DNA of 64,000 nucleotides from Limnohabitans sp. Jir61 (lineage in GTDB: Bacteria > Pseudomonadota > Gammaproteobacteria > Burkholderiales > Burkholderiaceae_C), in assembly GCF_003063545.1 (NCBI RefSeq), contig NZ_NESD01000001.1:434001-498000 (forward strand). Reading direction: 5' to 3'. The notes beneath the pieces are model-generated. The model saw only the letters and a program-made list of their open reading frames with translations, was not told where the DNA came from and searched no databases. A program made the translations under genes and the position numbers. Shown one piece after another: positions 18,073-36,800 of the stretch (positions are counted from its first letter, which is position 1; each line of letters starts with the position of its first letter).

Positions 18073-19340
18073 TTTTTGCCTGCGCTGCTAGCGGGGGTAT
18101 CAGAGCCGGGGGCTGGGGTGTGTTGCATGGCTTCATCTTGGGCGTTGCGGAACTCACGTGCCAAGAGCAAGCTGTTTTCTTTCACCACCAGTTCGTTTGC
18201 TTGCACGCCTTCGACGATGAGGACTTCTTGCAAGCCTTCATAGCCCAGCTTGACGCGGCGTGGTTCAAACACGCCTGGCTCGGTTTGCACATAGGCCCAG
18301 TGCTCAGTGCCGCGCAACTGCACAGCACTCGCAGGTACCAATACACCTGCGCCGAGTTTGCGTTCGATACGGGCGGTACCCAGCATTTCGGCCTTGAGGA
18401 TGCGGTCTGCATTGTTGATGGTGGCGCGCACTTTGATGGCGCGGGTGGTGCTATCGATGAAGTCACCGGCAGCAGTGATCTTGGCTTCAAAGGTTTGGCC
18501 AGGCAAGTTGGGCAAGGTCAATGAAACTTTGGTGCCTGTTTTGAGTGCCGCAGTGTCTGATTCGCGCGCATCGATTTGTACCCACAGCACACTGGGGTCG
18601 CTCACAACAAATAGCGCTTGGTTGCCAGGGCCGCCTTGGTCGGGGCGTACTTCTTGGCCTGCACTGAGGTTACGTTCGACCACCACACCCTTGACGGTGG
18701 CGGCGAGGCCGAGTTGCTGGTTCACGTTGTTGGTGCTGCTGCCGTACATGCGTGTGCGGGCTTGGGCGCGCGACAGCTCGGCGCGGGCGCGCATGGTGTC
18801 TGCTTCAGTCAGGTCGAGTTCTTTGCGCGAGATGACGTCGGCTTCAAACAAAGTTTGGTGACGAGCCAAGGCACGCTCGGCCACTTGGGCGTCCGCTAGG
18901 GCTTTGGCGGTGTCGGCTTGGGCAGCGCCAAATTCGGGTGAGGCCAAGGTGGCCAGCACTTGACCGGCATTCACGCTTTGGCCAATGTCGGCATTGAGGC
19001 TCAGCACACGTCCGGCAAATGCAGGGTAGATGCGCTGGGTGCGTTCTTCGTTCCACACCAAGCGCGCTGGCAGCTCGATGGTCACACTTTCAGCAGACTT
19101 GGCTTCGACAGTGCTGAGCAATGCGAGCTGAGGATGGTCTGCTGGAAAACGCAGCTGTTGGCCTTGCACGATCGGCAGTGGCACTGGGGGTTTGTGCGGT
19201 GCTTCTTGGTTCAGCAGGGTGTAGACCAGCACAGCGATGGCTAAAGCTGTACCACCAGCAACGTAGCGCTTGGTAGGTGTGTTCAGCAGTTGTTGGGTGG
19301 TTTCGCGGAGGCGATCTTGCAGGTTATGTCGTATGCTCAT
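18069..19340 (-). CDS. czcB: Efflux RND periplasmic adaptor (CzcB/HlyD family)
   Basis: Membrane-fusion protein linking CzcA to an outer-membrane channel. It has one N-terminal anchor (AGGTALAIAVLVYTLL), a biotinyl-lipoyl-like segment (YPAFAGRVLSLNADIGQSV), an alpha-helical hairpin (AQADTAKALADAQVAERAL onward) and beta-barrel region to the C-terminus. I use the ATG at 19340; a GTG at 19358 would add six residues and neither has a clear ribosome site. It is the first gene of the czcBA unit and is divergent from the response regulator 63 bases away. Confidence 0.88.
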   Translation of the reverse strand: MSIRHNLQDRLRETTQQLLNTPTKRYVAGGTALAIAVLVYTLLNQEAPHKPPVPLPIVQGQQLRFPADHPQLALLSTVEAKSAESVTIELPARLVWNEERTQRIYPAFAGRVLSLNADIGQSVNAGQVLATLASPEFGAAQADTAKALADAQVAERALARHQTLFEADVISRKELDLTEADTMRARAELSRAQARTRMYGSSTNNVNQQLGLAATVKGVVVERNLSAGQEVRPDQGGPGNQALFVVSDPSVLWVQIDARESDTAALKTGTKVSLTLPNLPGQTFEAKITAAGDFIDSTTRAIKVRATINNADRILKAEMLGTARIERKLGAGVLVPASAVQLRGTEHWAYVQTEPGVFEPRRVKLGYEGLQEVLIVEGVQANELVVKENSLLLAREFRNAQDEAMQHTPAPGSDTPASSAGKK

Positions 19341-19403
19341 GCCACGTTTATCGTTCACAGTGGCTGACCAGTCCCTGACTTAACTTTTATTTGAGTCCTT
19401 CCT

Positions 19404-20093
19404 GTGCGAATTTTGCTGATTGAAGACGACGCCGTGCTGCAAGCGGTGATGCTGCGTAGCCTGACTGATGCAGGTCATCGCGTGGACGCGGCCAGCCATT
19501 TGGAAGAAGGCGCACACTTTTGGCAGGTGCAGGCTTATGACGCCGTGCTGCTGGACCTGAACTTGCCGCTTAACGGCCAGCTTCACGCTGCCCAAGGCAG
19601 TGGTTTGCAGCTGCTGCGCGAAGCGCGCGCGCGAGGTGACCGCACGCCCGTGCTGGTGCTGACCGCGCGTAACCGCACAGATGAACGCATTGCCGGCCTA
19701 GATGCTGGTGCAGATGACTATTTGGGCAAGCCCTTTGATTTGGAAGAAGTTGAGGCGCGCTTGCGTGCATTGGTGCGCCGCACCCAAGGTGTGAGTGACG
19801 AGGTGCAGGTGGGGCGCTTGCGCCTGAACCGCAAGCTGCGCCGCATTTTTGTGGGCGATGCTGATCTGGCTTTGCCCGCGCGCGAGTTTGAAGTGCTGTG
19901 CGAGTTGATGACGCCACCGGGCCGTGCGGTGAGTAAACGTGTGTTGTCTGACAAGCTTTCTGATTTTGATGAGGCTTTGGGCGACAACGCACTTGAAGCG
20001 TTCATTTCGCGCTTACGTAAAAAATTGGCCGAGAGCGGGGCGAAGATTCGCACCTTGCGCGGCATTGGTTATGTTTTAGAGGAGCAGGTATGA
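19404..20093 (+). CDS. OmpR-family response regulator (CzcR/QseB-like)
   Basis: Receiver plus winged-helix DNA-binding protein, 229 residues, GTG start. Phosphorylation-site residues are visible: acidic pair in IEDD, Asp in VLLDLNLP, Thr in VLTAR and Lys in YLGKPFD. The C-terminal half carries the OmpR-type winged helix ending ISRLRKKL and RGIGYVLE. Odd point: between NLP and the following GL the receiver has about 11 residues (LNGQLHAAQGS) where this family normally has about four. It overlaps the kinase gene by 4 bases and is divergent from czcBA, which it probably controls. Confidence 0.9.
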   Translation: MRILLIEDDAVLQAVMLRSLTDAGHRVDAASHLEEGAHFWQVQAYDAVLLDLNLPLNGQLHAAQGSGLQLLREARARGDRTPVLVLTARNRTDERIAGLDAGADDYLGKPFDLEEVEARLRALVRRTQGVSDEVQVGRLRLNRKLRRIFVGDADLALPAREFEVLCELMTPPGRAVSKRVLSDKLSDFDEALGDNALEAFISRLRKKLAESGAKIRTLRGIGYVLEEQV

Positions 20094-22172: not shown

Positions 22173-23765
22173 TTAGAACGTGCGTTTGGCCACGATGGCC
22201 AGCACATCCAATTCCGCTTGGTGGTCGGCTTGGCTGTCTTTCAAACTTTTGCGCAAGGTGTCTTCGCCTGTGGCTTGTGTGATCAAGCTGAGTTGATCTA
22301 CCAAAAGCTTGAACTGGGCAGCGGCGAGGCCGGGGTGCGCTTTGGCGTCGAGCACCAAACCGTTGGCATGGGTGTGATCTTCTGCCTCTTTGGCTTCAAA
22401 CTCGGCACGTGCTTCATCGGTGAGGCGTTTGACTTCGTCGCTTGATAAGTGCAAGCGCTCGGCTTCGGCCACGATGAGTTCTTTTTCGGCATGGTCAAGA
22501 ATGCCATCCTCAAAAGCGAGCATCAAGCGTTGTTTGAAAGCTTCACGGTCAATACGCAGCTGGTCAGTGAAAGCAGATGCCAGCAAACCTGCAGGGATGG
22601 CAAAAATACCAATGCCAATCAAGGCTACGACAACCGTGAGCAATCGTCCCAAAGGTGTGATGGGCGAAATATCCCCGTAGCCCACAGAAGCCAATGTGAT
22701 GATGGCCCAGTAGATGGACTGAGGTATGTTTTCAAATTTGTCGGGCTGTGCGTCATGCTCTAGCAAAAAGCCCAAGCTGGCAGTTAGCACGACCAACAAC
22801 ATCATGACGAACACCGAGGCAAAGATGACTTGCCATTCACGTTGAACGACTTTGTAGAGCGTTTGTAGTGCCGATGTGTAGCGCGTGAGTTTGAGCAAAC
22901 GAATCAAGCGGAAGACGCGCAAGAAACGCAAGTCAATGTGTTGGCTGACCAAGGCCTCGAGGACGAATGGCAAGATGGCCAACAAATCAATGATGGCTGA
23001 ACCCGAGCGAATGTGCGCCCAACGACGCATGCGCAAGTGCTTGTAGTCGGGGTTTTCGGGGGCGGTGTAAACGCGCGCGATGTATTCGATGGTGAAGATC
23101 GTGAATGCCATCAAGTCAATGACATGAAACTCCACCGCAAACAATGCACGGATTGACTCAACGGATTCAAAGATTACGCAGGTGATCGACAGAGCCACCC
23201 AGAACACTACGAAGTTATCGACGTAGGCATGTAGGCGACCCGAGTGTCCTGTGGGTACAAGCAAGGCAAACAACTTGGCGCGGAAGCTTCGATCGGCGTT
23301 GAGCTCTTGAAACTCATGCCAAGCTGGAATGATTTGGCGTGAGAGCTTGAACATTCGCGCCAATCGCATGATTCGCAGAACGCGCAACATTTCCACATCC
23401 ACATCGACAAAGCGAGCAAAGTAGAAGGGTGCGATGGCGATCAAGTCAATCAGCGCATAAAAGCTAAGCGCATAGCGCAGGCGTGGAAAACTTTTACCCG
23501 CGTAATCTGGGTTTAGGTGCGCTGTTGCTATACGCATCACATATTCGGCGGTGAAGATGCCAACGGTGATGACGTCAAACAAATGGAACCAGTGTTTGTA
23601 GTCGTTGTAGATCTCGGGTGTGTTTTCGATGAGAACTGCAATCACACTCGCCACGATCAAGAACGCAATGGTGCGCTCAACTTGGCGTTGAAAGCCATGC
23701 TTGAACTCTGGGTCAAATACCCATTTGTAAAAACTGGCGAGAGGCGAGGTGTGATGTGTGGTCAT
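22173..23765 (-). CDS. Tandem voltage-sensor potassium channel (VSD-VSD-pore)
   Basis: The 530-residue membrane protein has two voltage-sensor domains before one pore. VSD1: S1 about 32-48, S2 62-80, S3 100-117, S4 124-141 with R127/R130/R133/R136/K139 spaced by three. No pore follows; instead comes a linker with EFQELN (150-155). VSD2: S1 183-200, S2 212-232, S3 256-272, S4 277-295 with five arginines and one lysine. Then S5, pore with the K+ filter TLASVGYGD (356-364) and S6. The C-terminus has the helical module also found in three neighbouring channels (DGILDHAEKELIV...LHLSSDEV). It overlaps the BacNav-type gene by 4 bases. The domain order is read directly; gating and selectivity are inference. 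Confidence 0.85.
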   Translation of the reverse strand: MTTHHTSPLASFYKWVFDPEFKHGFQRQVERTIAFLIVASVIAVLIENTPEIYNDYKHWFHLFDVITVGIFTAEYVMRIATAHLNPDYAGKSFPRLRYALSFYALIDLIAIAPFYFARFVDVDVEMLRVLRIMRLARMFKLSRQIIPAWHEFQELNADRSFRAKLFALLVPTGHSGRLHAYVDNFVVFWVALSITCVIFESVESIRALFAVEFHVIDLMAFTIFTIEYIARVYTAPENPDYKHLRMRRWAHIRSGSAIIDLLAILPFVLEALVSQHIDLRFLRVFRLIRLLKLTRYTSALQTLYKVVQREWQVIFASVFVMMLLVVLTASLGFLLEHDAQPDKFENIPQSIYWAIITLASVGYGDISPITPLGRLLTVVVALIGIGIFAIPAGLLASAFTDQLRIDREAFKQRLMLAFEDGILDHAEKELIVAEAERLHLSSDEVKRLTDEARAEFEAKEAEDHTHANGLVLDAKAHPGLAAAQFKLLVDQLSLITQATGEDTLRKSLKDSQADHQAELDVLAIVAKRTF

Positions 23766-24577
23766 CGTTTGTTTTGTTCAATGATGAGTTCACGCAAGGC
23801 GGTCACTTCTTTACGCAACTCTTGCAATTCATCTTGTACGCTGAGTTGGTGGCTGTGATCACGATGGTCTTTCTCTTTGTCAGCGGTGATCGAATCTACG
23901 ATCACAGCAATGAACAAATTGAAAATGATGAACGTGGCGATCAAGATGAAGAAGATGAAAAATACCCAAGAGTAGGGGAACACTTCCATCACAGGACGGG
24001 CAATGCCGTCAGCCCAACTCTCGAGGGTCATCACTTGGAATAAAGTGAAAGCGCTAGTGCTCAAACTGCCAAACCAATCTGGAAAGTCTTTGTGATACAG
24101 ATTGGTGGCAATGACCGAAGCAACGTAGAAGATGATCATGATCAGGCCAAATACAGAGCCCAAGCCTGGCAATGAACTGAGCAAGCCACCCACAACCTTG
24201 CGCATGCTCTCGACCTTGTTGATGAGGCGCAGTACCCGCAATACGCGCAGTGCACGCAACACAGCCAGCGAGCCAGAAGCAGGCACCAAGGCAATGCCGA
24301 CGACGATGAAGTCAAACACGCACCAAGCGTCTTTGAAGAACGAGAAGCCGCGTGCTGCAATGAGCAACACGATTTCTAAAATGAAAATGCCCAAGATGAC
24401 GTGGTCGAGCAAAAACAATTCATGACCCCATGTGTCCATCACCTCATGGTTCGTCTCAATGCCCAGAATGGCAGCGTTGATGACGATGAGAAAAACCAAG
24501 AAATGTTGAATGGCATGGTGTGTGATGAATTGTTCAATTCGTCCGCGCCAAGTGAGCGTATCGGTAGTGCTTTGCAT
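23762..24577 (-). CDS. BacNav-type voltage-gated sodium channel homologue
   Basis: Single-domain 6TM channel of about 271 residues. S4 reads LRALRVLRVLRLINKVESMRK split over 107-128, with arginines every third residue. The pore filter is TLESWAD (184-190), matching the BacNav TLESW signature (NaChBac TLESWAS, NavAb TLESWSM). S6 carries FNLFIAVIVDSI and the C-terminus is a predicted coiled coil (QDELQELRKEVTALRELI), as in BacNav tetramers. The seventh filter residue is Asp, as in the calcium-selective CavAb design, so some Ca2+ permeation is possible. An alternative GTG start at 24622 adds 15 residues. Translationally coupled to the tandem-VSD channel downstream. Confidence 0.88.
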   Translation of the reverse strand: MQSTTDTLTWRGRIEQFITHHAIQHFLVFLIVINAAILGIETNHEVMDTWGHELFLLDHVILGIFILEIVLLIAARGFSFFKDAWCVFDFIVVGIALVPASGSLAVLRALRVLRVLRLINKVESMRKVVGGLLSSLPGLGSVFGLIMIIFYVASVIATNLYHKDFPDWFGSLSTSAFTLFQVMTLESWADGIARPVMEVFPYSWVFFIFFILIATFIIFNLFIAVIVDSITADKEKDHRDHSHQLSVQDELQELRKEVTALRELIIEQNKR

Positions 24578-24916
24578 AACTAAATCAGAGTCAGAAATGT
24601 TGGATGGAAAATAACCGCTCACTCTACCTGATTGCGTTGGGTATGCTTTGATTTGGTGCAGCTAAGGTGTTGTTTTGCGATGTTGTGAGCAACTCAAAAA
24701 CTTTCAAATTTCTCAGAAATATTTACGTTCTGTTTTGTAATCTTTTGAAGTAAAAAATCTCATTGAGACAGTTGTATTTCATTCTCCATATACGGAAATA
24801 AATCCTAATTTGTTATTGCATGAGGGCTTACGCCAAGTTTTCAGCTGGCGAGTGATTCTTAAAATCTCTGCCAGTCCAAATTTTCCGTTTGGTTTACTTA
24901 AAGGAAAGATACACAT
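24578..24916. promoter_or_regulatory. AT-rich divergent promoter region between channel genes
   Basis: This stretch separates the BacNav-type gene (leftward) from the Kv gene (rightward) and must hold both promoters. It is visibly AT-richer than its surroundings. AAGGAA at 24901-24906 is the ribosome site of the Kv gene. I see no clear operator or long hairpin; CGCCA...TGGCG around 24831-24850 is a weak 5-bp inverted repeat only. Confidence 0.45.
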
Positions 24917-25948
24917 ATGCATGCAAATGTGCGTTACGAAGAGAATTCAGACAGCGTGATTCAACGCGTCTTCACAGACCCCACCAGCAAAGCGTTCACA
25001 CGTTGGGTGGCCATGATCAACTTCTGGATTTTGATTTCGTGTTTGTCATTGGCTGGTGAGACCGTAGAGCCTTATGCCACCGTTCATGCGAGCTTGTTCA
25101 ATTACATTGAATATGCCGCAGTGTTGTTCTTCACGATCGACTACCTCGGCAATTTGTACTTCGCCAAAGACCGCGTGAAGTACTTCTTCAGTTTCTGGGG
25201 CTTGGTTGACTTGATTTCGATCTTGCCAACTTACTTGAGCATCATGAATTTGACCGCCTTGCAAGGCTCTAAAGTTCTCCGTGTGTTACGCGTGGTTCGA
25301 GTGCTCCGAGTGTTGAAGATGGCACGTATTGCCTTGCAGCAGTTGGAAAAGAAGTTGGAAAGCTCCAACCCTATTCTGACCAACCTCAAGATCTATTTCA
25401 TCGCTTTGTTCTCCGTGGTGATGATCTCCAGCACCTTGATGTACTACGTGGAAGGTGACTTGTACTCTGCAGATGCCATCACTTTGGGTCAAGCCAAATT
25501 GGATGCAGAAATCAAGGCCAACCCATTACCTGCTGACGCGCCTCCAGAAGCTGCCAAGTTCATGCCTGTGGACCCCATCAGTGGCAACCCAATCCCAGAA
25601 GATAAGCGTTTCTTTACATCTATCCCTGCAGCGATGTGGTGGTGTATGGTGACTTTGACCACCACTGGCTATGGCGACATGTTCCCACTCACCTTTGGTG
25701 GACGTGTGATTGCAGCGGTCACCATGTTGATGGGCTTGGTACTGTTTGGTATTTTGTTGAACATCGTGGGTAAAACCATCATGGTGTTGTTGTTCGGTGA
25801 ACAACTCACAGAAGACAACACAGCACCTGCCACACGCGAAACGATTTTGCGCATGATGGTGAGCCGCAAATGGATTTCAGAGCACCGCGCTTATGAGTTG
25901 GAATTGATGTCTGAAGAAGAGATCAAGAACCACGCTAAGAACCTGTAA
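24917..25948 (+). CDS. Voltage-gated potassium channel with long extracellular turret
   Basis: The 343-residue 6TM channel has S1 about 29-48, S2 60-82, S3 90-110, S4 118-136 with K119/R122/R125/R128/R131/K134, S5 156-177, pore with the canonical K+ filter TTTGYGD (248-254), and S6 261-290. Between S5 and the pore helix there is an extracellular insert of about 50 residues (178-232) rich in Pro, Ala and acidic residues, much longer than in KvAP-type channels. The C-terminal tail ends SEEEIKNHAKNL. It is transcribed alone, with a strong terminator after it, and converges with the DUF4337 gene. Confidence 0.9.
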   Translation: MHANVRYEENSDSVIQRVFTDPTSKAFTRWVAMINFWILISCLSLAGETVEPYATVHASLFNYIEYAAVLFFTIDYLGNLYFAKDRVKYFFSFWGLVDLISILPTYLSIMNLTALQGSKVLRVLRVVRVLRVLKMARIALQQLEKKLESSNPILTNLKIYFIALFSVVMISSTLMYYVEGDLYSADAITLGQAKLDAEIKANPLPADAPPEAAKFMPVDPISGNPIPEDKRFFTSIPAAMWWCMVTLTTTGYGDMFPLTFGGRVIAAVTMLMGLVLFGILLNIVGKTIMVLLFGEQLTEDNTAPATRETILRMMVSRKWISEHRAYELELMSEEEIKNHAKNL

Positions 25949-25961
25949 AGGTTTTGCCAAC

Positions 25962-25992
25962 AAAAAGGCCGCTCTTAGAGCGGCCTTTTTTT
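25962..25992. terminator. Bidirectional rho-independent terminator
   Basis: Perfect stem AAAAAGGCCGCTC / GAGCGGCCTTTTT with loop TTA, followed by more T residues on the plus strand and A/T-rich sequence on the other side. It lies between the convergent Kv gene and DUF4337 gene and can serve both. Confidence 0.92.
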
Positions 25993-26006
25993 TATGTCTG
26001 TTTAAT

Positions 26007-26579
26007 TTATATGAACAACATAAATCCATTGATGGTGGAGAAGATGCCCATCAAGCCCAAAATGCAGGGCACCCAGAACAGCGCAGTGGTCCCAGTCAAA
26101 ATGGCCACCGAGGTCAACACAATGGCTATTTGAAGCAGAGCTTCTGCGTAATCAAACCATGGGTCTTGGCGCAGGGCGATGTCACGCTCATGCTCGTGCT
26201 CTTTGGCTTTTTCCATCAGCTCTTTTTTGCCGTCACCGGTTTCAGGCTCAGACTCGTAGCGAGCAATGTTCTTCTCATAAGCTTCCAGCTTTTTCTCAGC
26301 CATTTGTTTGGCAGCAGGCGAAAGCTTGTCGCTGGCGAGTTGAATGCGTAGTTCATCCGCTGCGATTTTGTAATCGGTCTGACGAATGTTCTTGGCTTGG
26401 TAGAACGAGTAGGCGTTCGCAGCCAAGATGTTGTTGCTCATGCTTTCTTTAGAGGCATTGTTGCCGCCTAGGCTGGCAATGGCCAAACACATGGCCAAAC
26501 TCGACACCAACATGGCGCAACGGGTGCGGAATGGATCGTTGCCGTGCTCTGGCAATTCGGTTTCTGGAGCTTCACTCAT
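26007..26579 (-). CDS. DUF4337 family membrane protein
   Basis: The 190-residue protein has an N-terminal membrane helix (MLVSSLAMCLAIASLGG), the DUF4337 hallmark of an alpha-helical middle (NAYSFYQAKNIRQTDYKI, then a charged coiled-coil-like segment 60-125), and two C-terminal membrane helices (about 145-188). DUF4337 has no known biochemical role. Here it is the last gene of a channel operon: it overlaps the 75-residue gene by 4 bases (ATGA) and is followed by a terminator. An auxiliary role in the channel locus is inference from position only. Confidence 0.85.
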   Translation of the reverse strand: MSEAPETELPEHGNDPFRTRCAMLVSSLAMCLAIASLGGNNASKESMSNNILAANAYSFYQAKNIRQTDYKIAADELRIQLASDKLSPAAKQMAEKKLEAYEKNIARYESEPETGDGKKELMEKAKEHEHERDIALRQDPWFDYAEALLQIAIVLTSVAILTGTTALFWVPCILGLMGIFSTINGFMLFI

Positions 26580-26803
26580 AGGTCTTCCTTTTTAGGGTTA
26601 GTCTGTTCTTCTGAGGATTTATTTTTGCGTTTGACAAAAATCTTATAGATAGCAAATACAGCCAATAGCACTGCCAAAACGCAAATCACCAGTTCGGCTG
26701 TGGTGAGTTGGTCTACAAACTGGTCGACATAGTCATACGTCGATAAGGGTGTGTAAACGTCTGGATTTTCTTGCTTGTATTTCTCGTAGGCGCGGTGGTC
26801 CAT
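26576..26803 (-). CDS. Small single-span membrane protein, unknown
   Basis: The 75-residue protein has an acidic, tyrosine-rich N-terminus (HRAYEKYKQENPDVYTPLS), one membrane helix at about 36-54 (AELVICVLAVLLAVFAIYK) and a basic-then-acidic cytoplasmic tail (KRKNKSSEEQ). I do not recognise the family. Its coupling to DUF4337 (4-base overlap) and 18-base spacing from the atypical-filter channel argue that it is real and cotranscribed. Size and topology resemble small channel auxiliary subunits, but nothing in the sequence proves this. Confidence 0.7.
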   Translation of the reverse strand: MDHRAYEKYKQENPDVYTPLSTYDYVDQFVDQLTTAELVICVLAVLLAVFAIYKIFVKRKNKSSEEQTNPKKEDL

Positions 26804-26821
26804 GGTGGCTCTCGCTTCGTT

Positions 26822-27793
26822 TTATTTAGATTGCTTATTGGCGTCAGAGATTTGTTTCTCTTCTTCCATTTGGTGTTTGATGGCTTCCACTTGCTCATCA
26901 GACATGCCCAGTTTGGCTTGCATGATTTTAAGTTGGGCTTGTTCTTCTTCTGTGACAACGCCGTCGGAAAGTACGTTTCTCACTTCCATTTCGTACAAAG
27001 CTTGACGTCGCTCAACTTGTGCGGTGTAGGCGGTGGCCACCACACCCGTCAAGATAGCCGCTAAGGCGATGGACAAGATTTGCGTGAAGATCACCAAGAT
27101 CGTGCCAAAGAAGGTGACAGGGTCAACGTTGCCCCAGCCCGACACAATGGTGATGACAAACCAATGCATGGCTGCTGGAATGGAGGGGAAGACTTCAGGT
27201 TGTTCGTGACCTTCGATGATGTAGATCAGCGAGGAGAAAAGCAAGCAGCTGATGAACAGCAAGAACACGGCTGATGAGAAAGAGTCTTTCTCGGCTTTGA
27301 CAGCAGCCACCATGTCTTCAAACGCGCTGTTGTAGCGAGAGAGTTTGAAAATTCGCATCAAACGGAACATCCGCAGCACGCGCAAGTCAGCGCCTGGGAA
27401 GAGCAGTTGCAAATAGAAGGGCACTGTACTTACAAAGTCGATGATGCCGTAGAAGCTGAATACGTATTCTTTGCGGCCATCCCATTGCGTGCCACCTGTA
27501 CGCAGGTATTTTTCGCCGTAAGACCAGACGCGCATGACGAATTCGACCGAGAACACGGCCACGCTGAACATGTCGAATAGGTGAAACTCGTGCTCGAAGG
27601 CTTCATGGATTTCGGGGACCGATTCCAAGATGATGCCAATCACGTTGGCTACTACCAGCAAGGCAATGAAAATTTCAACGAAATGGCTGTACTTGTCAGG
27701 CACTTCGCCTTCCATGATTTCGTAGGTGCGGCGCTTGATGCGTTGATAAGTCGAGGGGATAGGAACTGCTGTGGTCATGGTGCGCTCATTCAT
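26822..27793 (-). CDS. Voltage-gated-like ion channel with atypical filter VSGWGN
   Basis: The 323-residue 6TM channel has S1 about 38-58, S2 70-90, S3 110-131, S4 136-152 with R138/R141/R144/R147/K150, S5 172-192, pore and S6 228-255. The pore reads VITIVSGWGNVDP (212-224): aligned to the K+ filter TVGYGD, Thr becomes Val, Val becomes Ser, Tyr becomes Trp and Asp becomes Asn. The C-terminal module DGVVTEEEQAQ...LGMSDEQVEAI is shared with other channels here. It overlaps the paralogous gene upstream by 8 bases. Selectivity cannot be predicted; it may be a non-selective cation channel. Confidence 0.83.
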   Translation of the reverse strand: MNERTMTTAVPIPSTYQRIKRRTYEIMEGEVPDKYSHFVEIFIALLVVANVIGIILESVPEIHEAFEHEFHLFDMFSVAVFSVEFVMRVWSYGEKYLRTGGTQWDGRKEYVFSFYGIIDFVSTVPFYLQLLFPGADLRVLRMFRLMRIFKLSRYNSAFEDMVAAVKAEKDSFSSAVFLLFISCLLFSSLIYIIEGHEQPEVFPSIPAAMHWFVITIVSGWGNVDPVTFFGTILVIFTQILSIALAAILTGVVATAYTAQVERRQALYEMEVRNVLSDGVVTEEEQAQLKIMQAKLGMSDEQVEAIKHQMEEEKQISDANKQSK

Positions 27794-28697
27794 TGGCGGA
27801 CGATTTGTTTTTGGCGCGGAGCATCATGGCTTCGACTTGCTCATCGGTCAGGCGGTAGTGGGCTTGCAGTCGTTGCAGCGTTTCTTGCTCTTCTTCAGAC
27901 ATATTGCCATCTTTGAAAACTTCACGCAGCTGAGCTTCAAATGCTGCCTTCTTGCGTGCCACTTGGTTTGAGAAGGCCGAGGCCACGATACCCGTCATGA
28001 TCGCGGCCATACACACGCCCAAAAAGCCGGTGATGAGCGCAATGGCTTCACCTGCCTTGGTCATGGGTTCAACGTTACCGTAGCCTGAGGTGATAGTGAC
28101 GATAGACCAATAGATCGAGTGGGGGATCGTGCCGAAGAACTCAGGTTGCTGATGGCCTTCAGCGAAATGCATCAACGAGGCCGACACGATGGTGGCGATG
28201 GTCAACAAGAACACCGCAGAGCCAAACGCTTGGCGTTCTGAATGAATGGCATGAAACAAATCTTGCAGGGCCGTGTTGTACTTAGACAGCTTCAAGATTC
28301 GCAGCAAACGTAAGACGCGCAAAATGCGCAAGTCCAAGCCTGGCAAGAACATGTGCATGTAGTAGGGCATGGTGGCAAAGAAGTCAACCAAACCGAATGC
28401 GCTGAACATGTATTCAAAGCGACCTTTCCAAGCGCCGCCGTTTTCGCGGCTGTACTTGGCGCCCAATGACCAGACGCGAGAGATGTATTCACCCGTGAAG
28501 AACATCACGCTCCAAAATTCCAACTCATGGAAGAACTCTTTGAATTCAGCGTGAATTTCTGGGACGGAATCAAGGATCACAGCCGAGCAGTTGACGAGCA
28601 CCACAAGGGTGATCATCCACTCAACGTAGCGGCTGGCCGTGTGCTTGGGCGAGCCGTCCAAGATTTCCATCAGGGAGGTTTTAAATCCTGTAGTCAT
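27786..28697 (-). CDS. Voltage-gated-like ion channel with atypical filter TSGYGN
   Basis: Paralogue of the adjacent 323-residue channel, 303 residues. S1 about 25-45, S2 57-77, S3 96-118, S4 121-139 (R124/R127/R130/R133/K136), S5 159-178, pore 190-211 and S6 214-243. The filter reads VTITSGYGNVEP: relative to TVGYGD, Val is replaced by Ser and Asp by Asn, while Thr, Tyr and both glycines remain. The C-terminal tail has the shared module DGNMSEEEQET...YRLTDEQVEAMM. A terminator hairpin lies just upstream, so this gene probably has its own promoter and heads the run down to DUF4337. Confidence 0.83.
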   Translation of the reverse strand: MTTGFKTSLMEILDGSPKHTASRYVEWMITLVVLVNCSAVILDSVPEIHAEFKEFFHELEFWSVMFFTGEYISRVWSLGAKYSRENGGAWKGRFEYMFSAFGLVDFFATMPYYMHMFLPGLDLRILRVLRLLRILKLSKYNTALQDLFHAIHSERQAFGSAVFLLTIATIVSASLMHFAEGHQQPEFFGTIPHSIYWSIVTITSGYGNVEPMTKAGEAIALITGFLGVCMAAIMTGIVASAFSNQVARKKAAFEAQLREVFKDGNMSEEEQETLQRLQAHYRLTDEQVEAMMLRAKNKSSANE

Positions 28698-28740
28698 GGC
28701 GAGGGTCTAACGAGTTTGATGTATGTCGTGTTGGAATAGA

Positions 28741-28772
28741 AAAGCGGCCACACATTGAAGCGTGGCCGCTTT
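28741..28772 (-). terminator. Terminator after the 546-residue channel gene
   Basis: Eleven-base stem AAAGCGGCCAC / GTGGCCGCTTT with a 10-base loop. Read on the minus strand it ends in TTTTCTATT, a moderate U-tract. It separates the two-gene unit 195-aa protein/tandem-VSD channel from the downstream atypical-filter channels. Confidence 0.82.
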
Positions 28773-28781
28773 GTTTGTGGC

Positions 28782-30422
28782 TTAAGCCTTACCTTGAATT
28801 TTTTGCCACAAGGCAAATTCGTTGGCAGTCAGGCGCTCGCCTTGCTGAGCCGCTTGGTCAAACTGCGTCGCATCCACTTGCACGCCCAGTTGTCGGATCT
28901 GGCCCAGCAACACTTTGTAGTGTTCCACGGCCAAGGCTGGGTTTTCGGCAATCTTGTGAATCGGCAGTGGGTTGCGCTCTTCGAGCTCGTGCTCTTTGAT
29001 CACCACTTCAATCAGCTTGTTCACTTCTTCCACGGTCAAGTGCAAGCGTTTGGCTTCAGCACGGATGATGGCGGCTTCCGATTCGCTGATGTGGCCATCT
29101 TTCAGGATGGCGAACAAGTTGGCTTTCAACTGATCACGTTCTTTGACCAACTCATCGCTGAAGGCCGAGGCCAACAACGCAGCGGGGATCGCGAAGATAC
29201 CAATACCCAACAGCGCCAAGACGCTGGTCATGGCACGGCCCATCGGTGTGACAGGTGAAATATCGCCATAGCCCACAGAGGCCAAAGTAATGACCGCCCA
29301 GTAGATAGAGGTAGGGATGTTCTCGAACTTCTCTGGCTGAGCGTCGTACTCAAACAAGTAGCCCAAGCTGGCGGTCAAGACCAACAGCAACATCATGATG
29401 AAGGTGGCAGCGCCCATAACTGGCCACTCGCGGACCACCACTTTGACCAATACCGCTGTGGCATCGCTGCCGCGGGTGAGTTTGAGCAATCGTGCCAAAC
29501 GGAAGACTCGCAAGAAACGCAAGTCGATCAGGTGGTGCAAGAACACTTCTAAGAAGAAGGGCAAGATGGCCAAGAAGTCGATGAAGGTGGATGGGTTCTT
29601 GGCTTGTTTGAAGCGACCCAAGAAGGCGCCTTTGTAGCCAGGCTCTTCCACGCAAGCGTACATGCGCATGAAGTATTCCACCGTGAAGATGGCGACAGCC
29701 ACTGCGTCCAGGATGACGAATTGCAGATGTAAAACGTAGTTGATGCTCTTGACCGATTCCAAGATCACGGCCATCACAGACAAGATCACCCACACACCGA
29801 TGAACACTTCAAAGATGTGTTGCATGGTGCCGCCGTAGTTGCTGGGGAAAACCAATGCATGTACTTTTTGGCGGAAGGTGCGGCCTTTGTTGAGTTCTTG
29901 GAATTCAGCAATGGCTGGAATCAAGACACGGAACAACTTCAAAATCCGCAAGAGTCGCAGGAATCGGAGCACGCGCAAATCGATTGGGATGAAGGCCTTC
30001 AAGTAGAACGGCGCAACAGCCAAGAAGTCGATGATCGCAAATGGGCTGGTGACGAAACTGAAGCGCGCATTTTTGCGGTTCTTAAACTCTTCGTCTTCGG
30101 GGGCCAAGTACAGACGCAAGGCGTATTCAATGGTGAACACAGCCACAGAGAAGATGTCGAACAGCTCAAACCATGTGCGGTAGGGCTCGTACACCGCTGG
30201 CACGTGTTCAAACATCAAGCTGAACAAGTTACCGATGATCAGATAGCTGATCCACTTGTCGAGTTCTTTTTGGAAATTGCCAGGGATGTTTGGATCCAGC
30301 AACCACGAGTAGAGCCACTTGCGCATGGGCAAGTTGCGGTCAATGTTGGCTTCCTCGTCTTGACCCAGAATGGAATGGACGTCGAGGTCTTCTAGGAATT
30401 TGTCTTGTTTAGGGGTGTGCAT
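28782..30422 (-). CDS. Tandem voltage-sensor potassium channel (VSD-VSD-pore), second copy
   Basis: Paralogue of the 530-residue channel, 546 residues. VSD1: S1 57-78, S2 84-105, S3 126-144, S4 148-166 with R150/R153/R156/R159/K162/R165. A linker without pore follows, with the same signature IPA..EFQELN..R.FR.K (168-186). VSD2: S1 204-222, S2 234-256, S3 278-294, S4 300-317. Then S5 333-356, pore with TLASVGYGD (379-387) and S6 394-422. The 120-residue C-terminal part contains DGHISESEAAI...LHLTVEEVNKL. The N-terminal 50 residues are acidic and cytoplasmic. It lies 8 bases after the 195-residue gene, so the two are cotranscribed. Confidence 0.86.
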   Translation of the reverse strand: MHTPKQDKFLEDLDVHSILGQDEEANIDRNLPMRKWLYSWLLDPNIPGNFQKELDKWISYLIIGNLFSLMFEHVPAVYEPYRTWFELFDIFSVAVFTIEYALRLYLAPEDEEFKNRKNARFSFVTSPFAIIDFLAVAPFYLKAFIPIDLRVLRFLRLLRILKLFRVLIPAIAEFQELNKGRTFRQKVHALVFPSNYGGTMQHIFEVFIGVWVILSVMAVILESVKSINYVLHLQFVILDAVAVAIFTVEYFMRMYACVEEPGYKGAFLGRFKQAKNPSTFIDFLAILPFFLEVFLHHLIDLRFLRVFRLARLLKLTRGSDATAVLVKVVVREWPVMGAATFIMMLLLVLTASLGYLFEYDAQPEKFENIPTSIYWAVITLASVGYGDISPVTPMGRAMTSVLALLGIGIFAIPAALLASAFSDELVKERDQLKANLFAILKDGHISESEAAIIRAEAKRLHLTVEEVNKLIEVVIKEHELEERNPLPIHKIAENPALAVEHYKVLLGQIRQLGVQVDATQFDQAAQQGERLTANEFALWQKIQGKA

Positions 30423-30430
30423 GTCAGACC

Positions 30431-31018
30431 TCAGAATTCAAATTCAGCAACTTTGATGGCGTAGCCACCTTTATCGCAAACGGACAAGCGCAATTGCATC
30501 TTGTAGTCAATGGGATCGGCGTCGATTAACTGAGAAGCCACGAAAGGGGTGGCTGAGCCGGGAGGCGTAGGCATCAAGTCTTCCAACAGAATCGCGCCCA
30601 TCAAGGTGCGGTCTTTGGGGTCACAAGCCGCCACAAAGTGTGGCGCCACGTTGAAGAATGGGTTGATCTGGTCTTTCAGCTCGGTGGTTTCCATGATGTG
30701 AGCCAAGCAAGCGCCCCATGTACCAGGCGTGCCAGGTTTAGCGTCTGCCGCTGGTTTGACGCCGCCCTTGCAAGCAGGGTGCTGTGTATTGGCTTCAAAG
30801 CGTGTGGTGCCGGTTTCGGTCAGCCAGGCGACCCAAGCTTCACCATTGCTTTTGGAGGTTTCAACCTTGATGGCTTCCTTGTAGTTGACGACTCCGAGCA
30901 GGGTGACTGCTACAACGACGAGAACTAAAAAGGCCAAAAAGAGCTTGTCTGCGGTGGTTGTGCCGAGGTTTTGATGCTCGGACGTGTGATCTGCGGAAGA
31001 TGCCATGGATATCGCCAT
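30431..31018 (-). CDS. Membrane-anchored extracytoplasmic protein, unknown
   Basis: The 195-residue protein has a short cytoplasmic N-terminus, one hydrophobic helix at about 26-45 (LFLAFLVLVVVAVTLLGVV) and a periplasmic domain with four cysteines (in HPACKGG, WGACLAHI, VAACDPKD and LSVCDKGG) that could form two disulfides. I do not recognise the fold. It may start at the second ATG (31006). It is the first gene of a unit with the 546-residue tandem-VSD channel (8-base gap), which makes a channel-associated sensor or auxiliary subunit a reasonable guess, nothing more. Confidence 0.72.
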   Translation of the reverse strand: MAISMASSADHTSEHQNLGTTTADKLFLAFLVLVVVAVTLLGVVNYKEAIKVETSKSNGEAWVAWLTETGTTRFEANTQHPACKGGVKPAADAKPGTPGTWGACLAHIMETTELKDQINPFFNVAPHFVAACDPKDRTLMGAILLEDLMPTPPGSATPFVASQLIDADPIDYKMQLRLSVCDKGGYAIKVAEFEF

Positions 31019-31203: not shown

Positions 31204-31980
31204 TCAATGGTTTTGTGAGCCTCGATGCGCCCAACCTGTGGTGTGTTTTTCAATCATGCTGAACAACTCGTACATGATCATGGCCATTGCGCCCACCACG
31301 ACTAAACCTGCAAAGGCCAAGCCCATTTGCATGGCTGAGCCTGCAGAAATCAGCAAGTAGCCAATGCCTTCGTTGGCGGCGGTCATCTCAGACACAGTGG
31401 TGCCTACAAACGCCAAGGTGATGGCGACTTTGAGCGAGCCGTAGAAGTAAGGCATGGAGCGGGGCAGGCCCACTTTGATCAACACGTCCCAGCGCTTGGC
31501 GCCCAGCACGCGCAACACGTCTTCGAGCTCGGGCTCAAGCGTGGCCAAGCCGGTGGCGATGTTCACCATGATGGGGAAGAAACTGATCAAGAAAGCTGTG
31601 AGGATGGCAGGGCCCACGCCAATGCCAAACCACACGACCAAGATCGGCACAAACGCAGCTTTGGGCAAAGCATTAAAGCCGGTCATGAGCGGGTAGACGG
31701 CGGCATAGGCCAAGGGCGAGCTGCCAATGACAAAGCCGAGCAAGACGCCCACCACGATGGCAATGCCAAAGCCCACCATGGTCACCCAGAAGGTGCGCCA
31801 AGCGTGGCCCGCAATGACGTCGCGGTATTCGACCATTTGTTCCCAAATGCGCAGTGGCGAAGGGAACACAAATTCGGACACGTTAAAGAGCGAACAGGCG
31901 GCTTGCCAAATCAGCAAGGTGGCCACGAGCAAGCCCCATGGGGCCCAAGTTTCAAGTTGTTTTTGATTCATGGTGTTCAC
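31204..31980 (-). CDS. ABC transporter permease (SsuC/TauC/ThiX type)
   Basis: Inner-membrane permease of 258 residues with about six helices and the EAA-like loop DVLIKVGLPRSMPYFYGSLK (about 165-185), typical of the nitrate/sulfonate/taurine family. Its start overlaps the ATPase stop by 4 bases, and a terminator follows. It completes an importer with the ATPase and the NMT1/THI5-like receptor upstream. The substrate is not specified by sequence, but the operon carries the purine-regulon operator. Confidence 0.9.
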   Translation of the reverse strand: MNTMNQKQLETWAPWGLLVATLLIWQAACSLFNVSEFVFPSPLRIWEQMVEYRDVIAGHAWRTFWVTMVGFGIAIVVGVLLGFVIGSSPLAYAAVYPLMTGFNALPKAAFVPILVVWFGIGVGPAILTAFLISFFPIMVNIATGLATLEPELEDVLRVLGAKRWDVLIKVGLPRSMPYFYGSLKVAITLAFVGTTVSEMTAANEGIGYLLISAGSAMQMGLAFAGLVVVGAMAMIMYELFSMIEKHTTGWAHRGSQNH

Positions 31981-32801
31981 TGCCCGAGGTTGGTGCCGTC
32001 TTTACGCATCGCGCCAATGTGGCCTCGCAGCTCGTGGACGATGTTGGTGAACTCGGGGGTGTAGGTCACCTCCAAGTCGCGGGGGCGAGGTAAATCAATG
32101 TCGCGCTTGACCACAAAGCGGCCTGGGCTCTTGCTCATGACATACACGGTGTCGGCTAAAAAGACGGACTCGCGCAAATCGTGGGTGACCAAGATGACGT
32201 TGAACTTTTGCATGGCGTGCAAATCACGCAAGATGCACCACAGCTCTTCGCGGGTGAAGGCATCAAGCGCACCAAACGGCTCGTCGAGCAACAACATCTT
32301 GGGCTCGTGAATCAAGGCGCGGCAAATGCTGGCGCGTTGTTGCATGCCGCCTGAGAGCTCCCACGGAAACTTGCGCTCATAGCCACTCAAACCCACGGTT
32401 TGGAGCAACTGAATGGCGCGGGCTTCGTACTCAGCCTTCTTCTCTTTGAAGTTGGAGCGGTAAGGCTCCACGATTTCCAAGGGCAGCAACACGTTGTCGA
32501 GCGTGGTGCGCCAAGGCAAGAGCGATGGGGACTGAAACGCCATGCCACTGATTTTGAGCGGGCCGTTGACGGGCTGGCCATCCACATAAATCTCGCCACG
32601 GCTGGGTTTCTTCAAACCCGTGGTGAGTTTCATGAAGGTGGATTTGCCGCAACCCGAAGGGCCAACAATGGCGATGAACTCGCCTTGTTTGACCTGCAGG
32701 TTGATGTCTTCCACCGCAAAGTGGTTTTGCGCCAACAACTCATCGTTGTAGGCAAGCCAGACGTTTTGAAAATCGACGAAGTGTTCGGGAGATGCGGTCA
32801 T
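31977..32801 (-). CDS. ABC transporter ATP-binding protein (SsuB/TauB type)
   Basis: Cytoplasmic ATPase of 274 residues with Walker A GPSGCGKSTFMK, Q-loop MAFQSPSLLPWRTT, signature LSGGMQQRASICRAL, Walker B MLLLDEPFGALD and H-loop VTHDLRE. It pairs with the permease (4-base overlap) and the receptor 15 bases upstream. All catalytic motifs are intact. Confidence 0.92.
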   Translation of the reverse strand: MTASPEHFVDFQNVWLAYNDELLAQNHFAVEDINLQVKQGEFIAIVGPSGCGKSTFMKLTTGLKKPSRGEIYVDGQPVNGPLKISGMAFQSPSLLPWRTTLDNVLLPLEIVEPYRSNFKEKKAEYEARAIQLLQTVGLSGYERKFPWELSGGMQQRASICRALIHEPKMLLLDEPFGALDAFTREELWCILRDLHAMQKFNVILVTHDLRESVFLADTVYVMSKSPGRFVVKRDIDLPRPRDLEVTYTPEFTNIVHELRGHIGAMRKDGTNLGQ

Positions 32802-32816
32802 GCAGCAGGGCCTAGA

Positions 32817-33851
32817 TTACTTCTTACCCTTGGGCAACACGTCGAGTTCTTTGGCGGTTGGCAAGAAAGAACCGTTCCACACATCGTCTGCTTTGACGCG
32901 GGTTTTGGTGTTGAACGCGTCAGACACTTGAGAAGCCATCAAGCTCAGGCGTGGGCCTTTGACTTGACCAAAGCCTTCAGCGCGTGCGTCTGGGCTGTTG
33001 ATGACGGTGTCGATGGCCAGCTTCAAGCGGCGTGTTTCGAGTTCGCTGTTGATGATGCCGTCGCGGGCTTTGACTGTTTCGATGGCTTTGGCTGGATCAG
33101 CGATCACGTCCTTTGCACCTTTGGCAAATGCTGCCAAGAAGGCTTTGAGGGCGGCTGGGTTTTCTTTGATCAGCTTAGGCGAAGCGATGATGGCGTTGCC
33201 ATACAGCTTCACGCCGAAGTCTGGGTATTGCATGACGACCACATCGTCAGCTTTGACGCCGCGGGCTTCGATGTTGAGCAATGACGTGAATGTGAAGCCA
33301 GTGATGGCGTCCACATCGCCACGGACCAACATGGTTTCGCGCAAAGGTGGGTCCATCGACACCCAATTCACAGCGCCGATGCTGTTGGCTTTGGCGAAGA
33401 TGGGGAATGCGCGACGGCCAGCGTCGAACACGGGCGCACCGAGCTTTTTGCCTGCCAAGTCGGCAGTGGTTTTGATACCAGATTTTTTCAACGCCATCAC
33501 CGAAGCTGGTGTGTTGTTGTAAACCATCATCACGGCTACAGGCTTGTTAGGTGCGTCTGGGTTGTTGGCGTGGAATTCCATCAAGGCTGCCAAGTCAGCA
33601 AAGCCAATGTCATAAGCACCTGAGGCCACGCGGTTGACCGCGCCGCCAGAGCCGTTGCCTGCATCGACGGTCACGTCGAGCTTGGCGTCTTTGAAATAGC
33701 CTTTGGCCACAGGCACCAAGAAGAAAGCGGCAGGGCCTTCAAATCGCCAGTCGAGTTGAAATTTCAATGGGGTGGTTTGTGCAGAAGCGCCTGCAAAACT
33801 GGCGGCCAGTGCCAAGCCGAGGGTGGTTTTGATGAAGGTGCGTTTGATCAT
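32817..33851 (-). CDS. ABC transporter receptor (NMT1/THI5-like)
   Basis: Periplasmic receptor of 344 residues. The signal peptide (RTFIKTTLGLALAASFAGASA) and mature start LKFQLDWRFEGPAAFFLVPVAKG place it in the NMT1/THI5/SsuA group, which binds pyrimidine precursors, riboflavin, nitrate, sulfonates and other small compounds. ATG at 33851 is supported by AGAGG six bases upstream; open frame extends further upstream but without signal peptide. A TTGTATACAA palindrome 117 bases upstream places the operon in the presumed purine regulon, so a purine-derived ligand is likely but unproven. Confidence 0.88.
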   Translation of the reverse strand: MIKRTFIKTTLGLALAASFAGASAQTTPLKFQLDWRFEGPAAFFLVPVAKGYFKDAKLDVTVDAGNGSGGAVNRVASGAYDIGFADLAALMEFHANNPDAPNKPVAVMMVYNNTPASVMALKKSGIKTTADLAGKKLGAPVFDAGRRAFPIFAKANSIGAVNWVSMDPPLRETMLVRGDVDAITGFTFTSLLNIEARGVKADDVVVMQYPDFGVKLYGNAIIASPKLIKENPAALKAFLAAFAKGAKDVIADPAKAIETVKARDGIINSELETRRLKLAIDTVINSPDARAEGFGQVKGPRLSLMASQVSDAFNTKTRVKADDVWNGSFLPTAKELDVLPKGKK

Positions 33852-33967
33852 GTGTGCCTCTGAAAAACAAAATAAAGAAAGGTGATTGCGTCCTACCTTG
33901 CAATAAAGGTGCCCATTGGAAAGCGCCTTTTTGCTCTTGCTGGGCGCGAATTGTGCGCGACTTTGGT

Positions 33968-33977
33968 TTGTATACAA
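33968..33977. promoter_or_regulatory. TTGTATACAA operator upstream of the ABC receptor
   Basis: A perfect 10-bp palindrome. The same core TGTATAC recurs upstream of the permease, GntR/uraH, xdhA and puuD. GntR/FCD-family regulators bind short palindromes of this kind, and one is encoded at 40874-41542. Confidence 0.72.
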
Positions 33978-34044
33978 GCTGACGACGCACCAACACGGTG
34001 AGGTGCACATCCGTGGTGCGCATCTCTGCTTTTGTTTGCACATG

Positions 34045-34071
34045 AAAAAAGCCAGCGCAGTGGCTGGCTTT
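34045..34071 (-). terminator. Terminator after the TerC gene
   Basis: Stem AAAGCCAGC / GCTGGCTTT with a six-base loop, followed on the minus strand by a run of six T residues. It ends the TerC transcript before the ABC receptor promoter. Confidence 0.88.
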
Positions 34072-34095
34072 GGAAGGGTTGAACAGCTGGGCGGC

Positions 34096-34785
34096 TTATT
34101 CAGTGTCCACAGTTTTGTGGTGCTGCGCTGATTTGAGTTTGCCCCAAGCCAAGACAATCACGGCACCAGCAGCCGCGCAAGCAAAGTGGAACCACTGGTT
34201 GGCTTGGCCGAATTCGCGAAGCACCACGTCGTTGGCCACAGTCTCGCCACCCACCCAACCGATCAAGCATGCACCCAAGGTGATGATGACGGGGTAACGC
34301 TCCATGAGTTTGATCATCAAGGTGCTGCCAAAGATCACCAGTGGGATGCTAATGGCCAAGCCGATGATCAACAGCACTTCATCGCCTTTTGCGGCAGCGG
34401 CCACGCCAATGACGTTGTCCAAGCTCATCACCAAGTCTGCGATCAGGATGGTGCGAATGGCAGAGAACAAATTACTGTGCTCGCTGGCTTCTTCTTCGTT
34501 TTCTTCTTCTGCTTCCAACAGTTGTGCACCAATCCACAGCAGAAGCAAGCCGCCGATGATTTGCAGGTATTCCAAAGCCATCAACTTGGCGGCAATCACG
34601 GTCAAGCCAATACGCAGCACTACAGCTGCGCCTGAACCGAACATGATGGCTTTCTTTTGTTGCTCAGGTGGCAGGCCGCGCGCAGCTAAGGCGATCACCA
34701 CAGCGTTGTCGCCAGACAAAAGGATGTTGATCCAAGTGATCAGCAGCAAGCCTAGCCAAAAGTCAGTGCTTTGCAGGTATTCCAT
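34096..34785 (-). CDS. TerC family membrane protein (YjbE/YceF-like)
   Basis: Integral membrane protein of 229 residues with about seven helices. Two family motifs with acidic residues inside helices are seen: LLSGDNAVVIALAARGLP near the start and LVMSLDNVIGVAAAAKGDE in the middle, separated by an acidic cytoplasmic loop (EAEEENEEEASE). TerC-family proteins are linked to metal, often Mn2+, export. Start at 34785 is supported by GGAG nine bases upstream. It is flanked by terminators and transcribed alone. I looked for a yybP-ykoY Mn riboswitch upstream and could not make one. Confidence 0.88.
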   Translation of the reverse strand: MEYLQSTDFWLGLLLITWINILLSGDNAVVIALAARGLPPEQQKKAIMFGSGAAVVLRIGLTVIAAKLMALEYLQIIGGLLLLWIGAQLLEAEEENEEEASEHSNLFSAIRTILIADLVMSLDNVIGVAAAAKGDEVLLIIGLAISIPLVIFGSTLMIKLMERYPVIITLGACLIGWVGGETVANDVVLREFGQANQWFHFACAAAGAVIVLAWGKLKSAQHHKTVDTE

Positions 34786-34943
34786 GTGTAATTTGCTCCA
34801 AGGGGGAATTTTTGTAACGGCAGGCCTCATGGGCTGCTCTTAATGAGTGATAAGTGTAACGGCGCTGTTTTGCAAGCATCGTTGGTATTACTGCTTATGC
34901 GACAGACCGTGGAAACACTAGGTACACAAAGGCTTTGGCCAAA

Positions 34944-36483: not shown

Positions 36484-36505
36484 CGTTTTTCCTTTGGAAT
36501 TTTTC

Positions 36506-36525
36506 GCATACAAAACTGTATACAA
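36506..36525. promoter_or_regulatory. Double GntR-type operator upstream of the purine permease
   Basis: A full site TGTATACA (36517-36524) and a variant GCATAC (36506-36511) have centres 12 bases apart, about one helical turn. The same full-plus-variant pair with 12-base spacing occurs upstream of xdhA. It lies 23-42 bases upstream of the permease ATG, a good position for repression. Confidence 0.72.
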
Positions 36526-36583
36526 AATATGCTCGGGTTGTTTTACGGAGAAACCCTATTTTTTGGTTTCTTTGCTGTGCTCG

Positions 36584-36661: not shown

Positions 36662-36691
36662 ACTGCGGTGAGCAGTTTTTCGGATGAAACA

Positions 36692-36769: not shown

Positions 36770-36800
36770 GCTCTCCGGAGAGAGCCCTCACGAGTTAAAT

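Follow-up and report, generated by a model that had tools for sequence, protein, structure and literature searches.

A conserved I-H-G-F operon of voltage-gated channel genes within a nine-gene cluster of Limnohabitans sp. Jir61

The window analyzed here, a stretch of 64,000 nucleotides from Limnohabitans sp. Jir61 (contig NZ_NESD01000001.1, positions 434,001 to 498,000), carries at positions 22173-31018 a cluster of six genes encoding putative voltage-gated channels and three genes encoding small membrane proteins, named A to I in this work (Table 1). Comparison with related genomes indicated that this nine-gene cluster is a widespread operon, I-H-G-F, joined to an E-D-C-B-A block, and that the conserved unit is the I-H-G-F operon, which is smaller than the cluster. 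Within the operon, H encodes a channel with a K+-type filter and two voltage sensors, and G and F encode sister channels with a shortened filter. The interpretation that we favor, although we give it slightly less than an even chance, is that G and F would form a heteromeric voltage-gated cation channel that is not strictly K+-selective, that H would be its K+ counterpart, and that both would act in cation and voltage homeostasis.

On the minus strand the genes are read in the order I, H, G, F, E, and D; C lies on the plus strand, convergent with D, and beyond C the genes B and then A are again on the minus strand. A first-pass annotation made from the sequence alone had described six channels, i.e. 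two tandem-sensor K+ channels, one of the bacterial voltage-gated Na+ channel (BacNav) type, one of the voltage-gated K+ channel (Kv) type, and two with atypical filters, together with a DUF4337 protein, a 75-residue one-span protein, and a 195-residue anchored protein. The nine open reading frames (ORFs) were found where it had placed them, and the channel types were borne out by the filters described below, by matches to PF00520 well beyond the cut-off (E-values of 1e-42 for A, 3e-41 for B, 3e-29 for C, 1.5e-25 for F, 4e-28 for G, and 6e-46 for H), and by the presence of two PF00520 stretches each in A and H. D is indeed a DUF4337 protein (7e-46), and E and I matched no Pfam family above the cut-off, with one sub-threshold match for E (E-value of 0.004). 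The gene overlaps from which an organized layout had been deduced were also confirmed, being of 4 bp for B/A, 4 bp for E/D, and 8 bp for G/F, and the genes of the operon are presumably co-transcribed.

The conservation of the cluster, which the first-pass annotation had proposed to check by synteny, was analyzed in 80 loci anchored on G (the best 80 of 110 found) and proved real for the core. The refuting outcome named in that annotation, i.e. no more than one or two of the genes side by side in any related genome, did not occur, but the full set of nine genes was present only in the window and in five of the 80 loci, all from its close relatives. Both I and H were found upstream of G in 61 of the loci, and H without a visible I in 6 more where the contigs start, which places H directly upstream of G in 67; a gene for a coiled-coil protein of about 243 residues (CC243) took that place in 10, and nothing was seen in the remaining 3, whose contigs begin less than 300 bases from G. 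Downstream, F was directly adjacent to G in 73 loci, about 7 kb away in 3 (L133-L135), and not seen in 4, in which the contig ends within about 700 bases. The spacing was also well kept, since the gap between I and H measured 8 bp in 46 of the 61 loci, and G and F overlapped by 4 bp in 42 of the 68 pairs measured and overlapped or were apart by no more than 11 bp in all of them. In agreement with these observations, 40 of the 61 congeners searched contain G (more than 540 bits) in 41 loci, one of them with an in-frame stop, and F follows G in 39 of these 41 loci, the other two reaching the contig end; this count leaves out two genomes, one with interrupted pieces of G and F (G001) and another with F at a contig start (G1071). 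The congener set and the set of 80 loci overlap, and their counts are not independent. Among the 26 congeners with at least 90% completeness and at most 5% contamination (rows read by eye), G was present in 16, i.e. it is common but not universal.

The relatives' loci came mostly from Comamonadaceae, Burkholderiales, or Limnohabitans metagenome-assembled genomes (MAGs), and a few record titles name ponds or lakes. Limnohabitans is an inhabitant of fresh water. Two MAG titles (Bordetella parapertussis for L082 and Rickettsia typhi for L097) are at odds with the Burkholderiales-like channel genes that these records contain, and the bins are probably mislabelled. Among the matches listed from the open-licence PMC literature, nothing dealt with the I-H-G-F operon, with tandem-sensor bacterial K+ channels, or with such channels in Limnohabitans, and nothing relevant by title was found there for DUF4337.

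The most distinctive feature of G and F is the selectivity filter. The spacing between the pore-helix Trp and GxG was +8 in all 81 full-length G proteins (77 by pattern and 4 by eye) and in all 75 F proteins, versus +9 in 69 of 69 H proteins, 8 of 8 A proteins, and each of the 39 canonical relatives with the motif (40 were taken, of which one lacks the motif, and at least one gene is present twice). The filter of G was GYGN in 71 proteins, GFGN in 4, GWGN in 2, GNG in 2, and GSG in 2, and that of F was always GWG (GWGN in 73 and GWGG in 2). In contrast to the TxGYGD filter at canonical spacing of Kv channels, the residue after GxG in G and F was, where read, N or G and not D. The S4 helix retains the repeated Arg of voltage sensors, as the pattern R..R..R..R..K..[KR] was found in 77 of the 81 G proteins and in every one of the 75 F proteins. 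A degenerate pattern for the G/F filter was detected only in the window's own genome among 299 genomes of a phylum sample, which included no other congener as far as shown. Strict K+ selectivity is improbable for the shortened SGxGN filter. A TerB-like tail on F was also considered, but it was discarded because the TerB match reached only an E-value of 0.009, below the cut-off.

In a tree of 72 pore-plus-sensor rows (three dropped), G formed one clade (support 99/96), F another (100/100), and G and F were sisters (100/99); the row nearest to both was the L141 protein, with a canonical filter (96/90). The deep branching of G and F was compatible, although the F clade gave no resolution at that depth. 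Given this sisterhood, the pairing of their genes, and the shortened filter that they share, G and F may combine into a mixed channel of a type not familiar so far. That some G proteins have lost the aromatic residue, with the Trp of F being invariant, would be easier to reconcile with a mixed pore than with two homotetrameric K+ channels. We consider it improbable that each of the two is an ordinary homotetrameric K+ channel and that operon inertia holds the genes together, as could be argued from the voltage sensor and GxG filter kept in both and from the GYG of most G proteins, since the filter is shortened in every G and F protein, GNG and GSG variants exist, and both genes are kept in L133-L135 even though they are about 7 kb apart.

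The H and A proteins carry a canonical [TS]xGYGD filter (GYGD at Trp+9 in 69 of 69 H and 8 of 8 A proteins), as C does (TTTGYGD), but they differ from Kv channels, which have one voltage sensor per subunit, in having two charged sensors. In the 33 aligned H/A rows, residues E99, R103, D132, R150, R153, R156, R159, and K162 of sensor 1 (H numbering) and E249, R253, D282, R302, R305, R308, R311, K314, and R317 of sensor 2 were invariant, which comprise in both sensors the S2 glutamate, the S3 aspartate, and the S4 charges; with a stricter S4 pattern only sensor 2 complied in 7 of 69 H proteins. The AlphaFold2 (AF2) model of H, with a predicted local distance difference test (pLDDT) score of 77 and a predicted template modelling score of 0.62, was read as 4+4+2 membrane helices, with filter residues 384-387 below a pLDDT of 50. 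A fold search with H gave, among the 50 matches listed, a top template modelling score by query of 0.34, all matches being of Kv type and none a tandem-sensor precedent. When a profile of H was run on 369 genomes of the class (E-value of at most 1e-50, with up to three candidates of each genome scored), the match extended over both sensors only in the H and A proteins of the window's own genome, and the other 30 matches listed, in 28 genomes, started at position 155 at least, i.e. they cover one sensor and the pore. Further tandem-sensor genes were found within the order, e.g. in G379, G405, and G251, and a congener without G-F at the threshold used, G019, has two consecutive tandem-sensor channel genes (L219:2571-5806), one with the filter SSIGYGDMTP. 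H and A formed one clade in the tree (97/100); those of distant genomes mix, and the labels H and A do not denote strict orthologues there.

The I protein consists of a 51-residue N-terminal helix (residues 22-72) followed by four strands (AF2 pLDDT of 90.9), and it gave no PDB fold match at an E-value of at most 0.001. Its four Cys are invariant in the 36 aligned rows, and I is probably disulfide-bonded. From gene position alone, we propose that I is a periplasm-facing partner of H. Despite the helix-plus-sheet model, a type IV pilin-like nature of I was discarded, as the best match was a weak one to Arch_flagellin (E-value of 0.13) in one of 36 members; no other pilin family appeared at an E-value of at most 1 among these members, and the Gly at the prepilin -1 place varies between rows (by eye).

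The position of H directly upstream of G in most loci and the altered filters of G and F raise the question of whether G and F are modifier ('silent') subunits, which would join H in a K+ channel and adjust its behavior. However, the two parts of the operon also occur separately. In G311 and G369 (85-87% complete) G-F is present and no H was detected, and the closed genomes G379 and G405 contain I-H (with I only 27-28% identical) but no G-F, 5 of 7 candidates having been scored in G379. We regard a modifier role as quite improbable.

An alternative neighborhood of G-F gave a hint on its physiological role. In the 10 loci in which CC243 precedes G, a DUF1538 gene lies ahead of CC243 in 7, the other three contigs starting too late, and a relative of ClC, NhaD, or NhaP is present in 8, the contigs of L132 and L137 ending first; in G311 and G369 the order is DUF1538, CC243, G, F, and a distant ClC relative. 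Pfam and NCBIfam calls were made on proteins of L131, L134, L182, and L217 and extended to other loci by BLAST. CC243 (L131:9194-9925 and relatives) matched no family in either database, and 61 of its 244 columns are invariant in eight rows. The NhaD protein of L131 passed one NCBIfam cut-off (138 versus 80 bits) and missed another (402 versus 577), and the DUF1538 protein of the same locus stayed below those of UmpA (198.6 of 490 bits) and UmpB (171.3 of 500 bits). The DUF1538 proteins UmpAB are described, in the available part of the source, as a Na+(Li+,K+)/H+ antiporter (PMC5484666). The ten CC243-G loci, eight of them with ClC, NhaD, or NhaP relatives, point to ion or pH homeostasis rather than excitability. 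Downstream of ClC in this neighborhood there is also a protein of 374-415 residues (L131:13161-14285, L076:13187-14311, and L125:7231-8478). Part of it resembles a voltage sensor (in L131 the PF00520 match is limited to positions 5-120), and no pore was recognized in it. One locus without G-F, L217, encodes a P-II domain, and look-alike ORFs precede CC243 in L082 and L132 (by eye).

A second pairing of channels in the window is provided by B and A. The filter of B, TLESWADG, fits TLESWxxG, and in the PDB B matched chains titled 'Ion transport protein' (E-values of about 1e-70), presumably those of NavMs and NavAb, as well as an entry named as a NavAb fusion (6e-67); these matches identify B, at the level of sequence, as a BacNav-type Na+ channel. 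Near G-F in L076, positions 16638-19728 encode a triplet formed by a B-like protein, a tandem-sensor K+ channel, and a second B-like protein, and the B-like proteins are 51-54% identical to B, with the filter TGDGW and not TLESW. An apparent double recurrence of a Nav channel next to a tandem K+ channel was discarded, because L221 is the same contig as L076 and the Nav-like filters are TGDGW, which leaves one case.

The channel genes of this genome are concentrated in the cluster, where all eight PF00520 matches of the 2.63-Mb genome are located; a search with Ion_trans_2 gave four matches there and one pore-type match outside (C1:920200). In a survey of 61 genomes, in which tandem channels count twice and many congeners are incomplete bins, 37 genomes of the genus had a median of 5 and a mean of 5.5 PF00520 matches (16 in G019), and 24 genomes that represent 24 other families of the order had 16 altogether (mean 0.67, maximum 2). 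The first-pass annotation had suggested bacterial excitability as one possible role. An inward channel (G-F or B) and an outward K+ channel (H or A) would in that case generate all-or-none or oscillating voltage spikes for signaling, with the same parts as in the homeostatic interpretation. The pairing of a non-K+-type with a K+-type voltage-gated channel in two operons, the triplet of L076, and the richness of the genus in such channels agree with it, but the antiporter and ClC genes that surround G-F elsewhere and the TGDGW filters of L076, which make the recurrence looser than it appears, do not, and we consider excitability unlikely.

The E-D-C-B-A block is much less conserved than the core, being complete in 5 of the 80 loci and partial in 11; in the other 64 it did not appear at more than 60% identity, although some of these contigs end early. 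Homologues of E were found in 11 loci, only from close relatives of the window, and of D in 10. The closed relative G1075 keeps eight of the nine genes, and C was not found in its examined stretch. In L071-L073 and L119, F is directly followed by a flavin reductase gene, which is the gene that flanks A in the window. This patchy distribution would be expected if the six-channel cluster had arisen by chance accretion, with no joint function beyond the I-H-G-F core. Such an origin is somewhat unlikely, however, in view of the B/A overlap, of the B-like and A-like neighbors found again in L076, and of the location of every PF00520 channel of the genome at this site.

According to the favored interpretation, a G-F heteromer working with H, the cluster would comprise two operon-borne pairs of voltage-gated conductances plus the lone Kv gene C. 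The sister subunits G and F, whose co-assembly is suggested by their genetic pairing, would build one heteromeric voltage-gated cation channel acting as a depolarizing inlet, and H, with I as membrane-anchored periplasmic partner, would be the K+ outlet that resets the voltage. In the B-A operon the same roles would fall to the BacNav-type channel B and to A, the other K+ channel with tandem sensors. If the predicted proteins are working channels, the outcome would be a voltage-controlled cycling of cations that keeps ions, pH, and membrane potential in balance in dilute water. The G-F inlet would also supply cation/proton antiporters, a role modelled on that of NsvBa in alkaliphiles as given in the available part of that source (PMC4225499).

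Several observations weigh against this interpretation. Most G proteins retain GYG, and K+ selectivity of the TSGYG in G is still conceivable, should the missing residue come from the pore helix; the S6 LTG motif of F and G is also present in 8 of 40 canonical relatives. In the tree, the F protein of L131 groups within those of Limnohabitans and its G protein outside them, and 10 of the 26 high-quality congeners have no G. As for the antiporter link, it is contextual, since CC243 was found in 4 of 399 genomes of the order, two with G-F beside it and two that keep the unit without G-F; in the window's own genome CC243 was not found, and DUF1538 gave no match in a weak search in which the control genomes were equally silent. 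Finally, Na+ is scarce in fresh water, which weakens the case for a Na+ inlet.

Coordinates of the cluster are collected in Table 1. Of the terminators that had been read into the region, only one site stands out, the 13-pair hairpin between C and D, probably a two-way terminator; across the region 13 terminator-like sites were counted versus 12.1 expected, i.e. there is no excess. Promoter-like sites were fewer than in shuffled sequence (2 versus 7.6), and no promoter was assigned on this basis.

Table 1. Features of the channel cluster (positions in the window)
Feature	Position	Strand	Description
Gene I	30431..31018	-	195 aa; one-helix anchor and four-strand domain; first gene of the core operon
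Gene H	28782..30422	-	546 aa; K+-channel-type pore SVGYGD after two voltage-sensor domains
H voltage sensor 1	29892..30272	-	residues 51-177; model helices
H voltage sensor 2	29475..29831	-	residues 198-316; model helices
H pore S5-P-S6	29103..29426	-	residues 333-440
Gene G	27786..28697	-	303 aa; predicted voltage-gated channel; shortened filter TITSGYGN
G filter coding stretch GYGNVEP	28060..28085	-	pattern match
Gene F	26822..27793	-	323 aa; sister channel to G; filter TIVSGWGN, shortened
F filter coding stretch GWGNVDP	27114..27139	-	pattern match
Gene E	26576..26803	-	75 aa; one-span protein
Gene D	26007..26579	-	190 aa; DUF4337
Hairpin	25962..25990	none assigned (listed on +)	13 pairs, T-flanked; between convergent C and D
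Gene C	24917..25948	+	343 aa; Kv-type channel; TTTGYGDMFP
Gene B	23762..24622	-	286 aa; BacNav-type Na+ channel (predicted); TLESWADG
Gene A	22173..23765	-	530 aa; second tandem-voltage-sensor K+ channel (predicted)

Beside the cluster, the window contains an NMT1-type ATP-binding cassette system (31204-34157), a TerC gene (34096-34830), and, at 34996-48385, genes for a Xan_ur_permease, an OHCU decarboxylase, M20 peptidases, and xanthine-dehydrogenase-like subunits; together with the ATP-binding cassette system, these genes look like a purine-use locus. A pyridine-nucleotide oxidoreductase encoded at 42107-43582 is 74% identical to the product of a gene beside H in L134. In L133-L135, from Oxalobacteraceae and Polynucleobacter-labelled MAGs, TerC and the pyridine-nucleotide oxidoreductase adjoin F and H, respectively.

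A conserved operon of this kind in planktonic freshwater bacteria bears on what bacterial voltage-gated channels are for, and in particular on whether they serve homeostasis or electrical signaling and on whether bacteria build heteromeric voltage-gated channels. It also offers a natural system in which to study how one pore is gated by two sensors per subunit and how a filter shorter by one residue conducts. A bolder proposal, which we find doubtful, is that freshwater Burkholderiales have two-current electrical modules, with a depolarizing channel and a doubled-sensor K+ channel in each operon, one of the depolarizers being an obligate short-filter G/F heteromer; if true, G and F would form an obligate heteromeric voltage-gated channel, to our knowledge a first for bacteria.

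Compared with known systems, the likeness to the bacterial voltage-gated Na+ channels NavAb, NavMs, and NaChBac concerns only B, by sequence and by its filter, TLESWxxG being the BacNav motif in the available part of the source (PMC4225499); the other five channels fall outside that family, and B differs in that its gene overlaps that of a tandem-sensor K+ channel. With Kv channels (Kv2, Kv4, and KCNQ by sequence) the cluster shares the sequence and fold of the six-transmembrane core and, in H, A, and C, the canonical filter, and a tail similar to that of bacterial Kv channels with a DG-EE tail was seen by eye in class-level relatives; the differences are the second voltage sensor of H and A and the one residue fewer before GxG in G and F. 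NaK is a two-helix channel without a voltage sensor. Its nonselective filter, given as TVGDGN in the available part of the source (PMC9822992), resembles the GxGN end of the G and F filters, including the GNGN and GSGN variants of G, but G and F have an Ion_trans domain of six helices with an S4, a shorter Trp-to-filter spacing, and two different subunits. The alternative G-F neighborhood recalls UmpAB (PMC5484666, as far as the available part goes) by its two-domain DUF1538 protein, although it is here one protein and not two and, as mentioned above, scores below the UmpA and UmpB cut-offs. The closest parallel to the proposed role of G-F is NsvBa, a voltage-gated nonselective cation inlet that feeds cation/H+ antiporters according to the available part of its description (PMC4225499), but NsvBa is a Nav homologue with the filter TLDSWGSG, whereas G and F are nearest to Kv-type channels.

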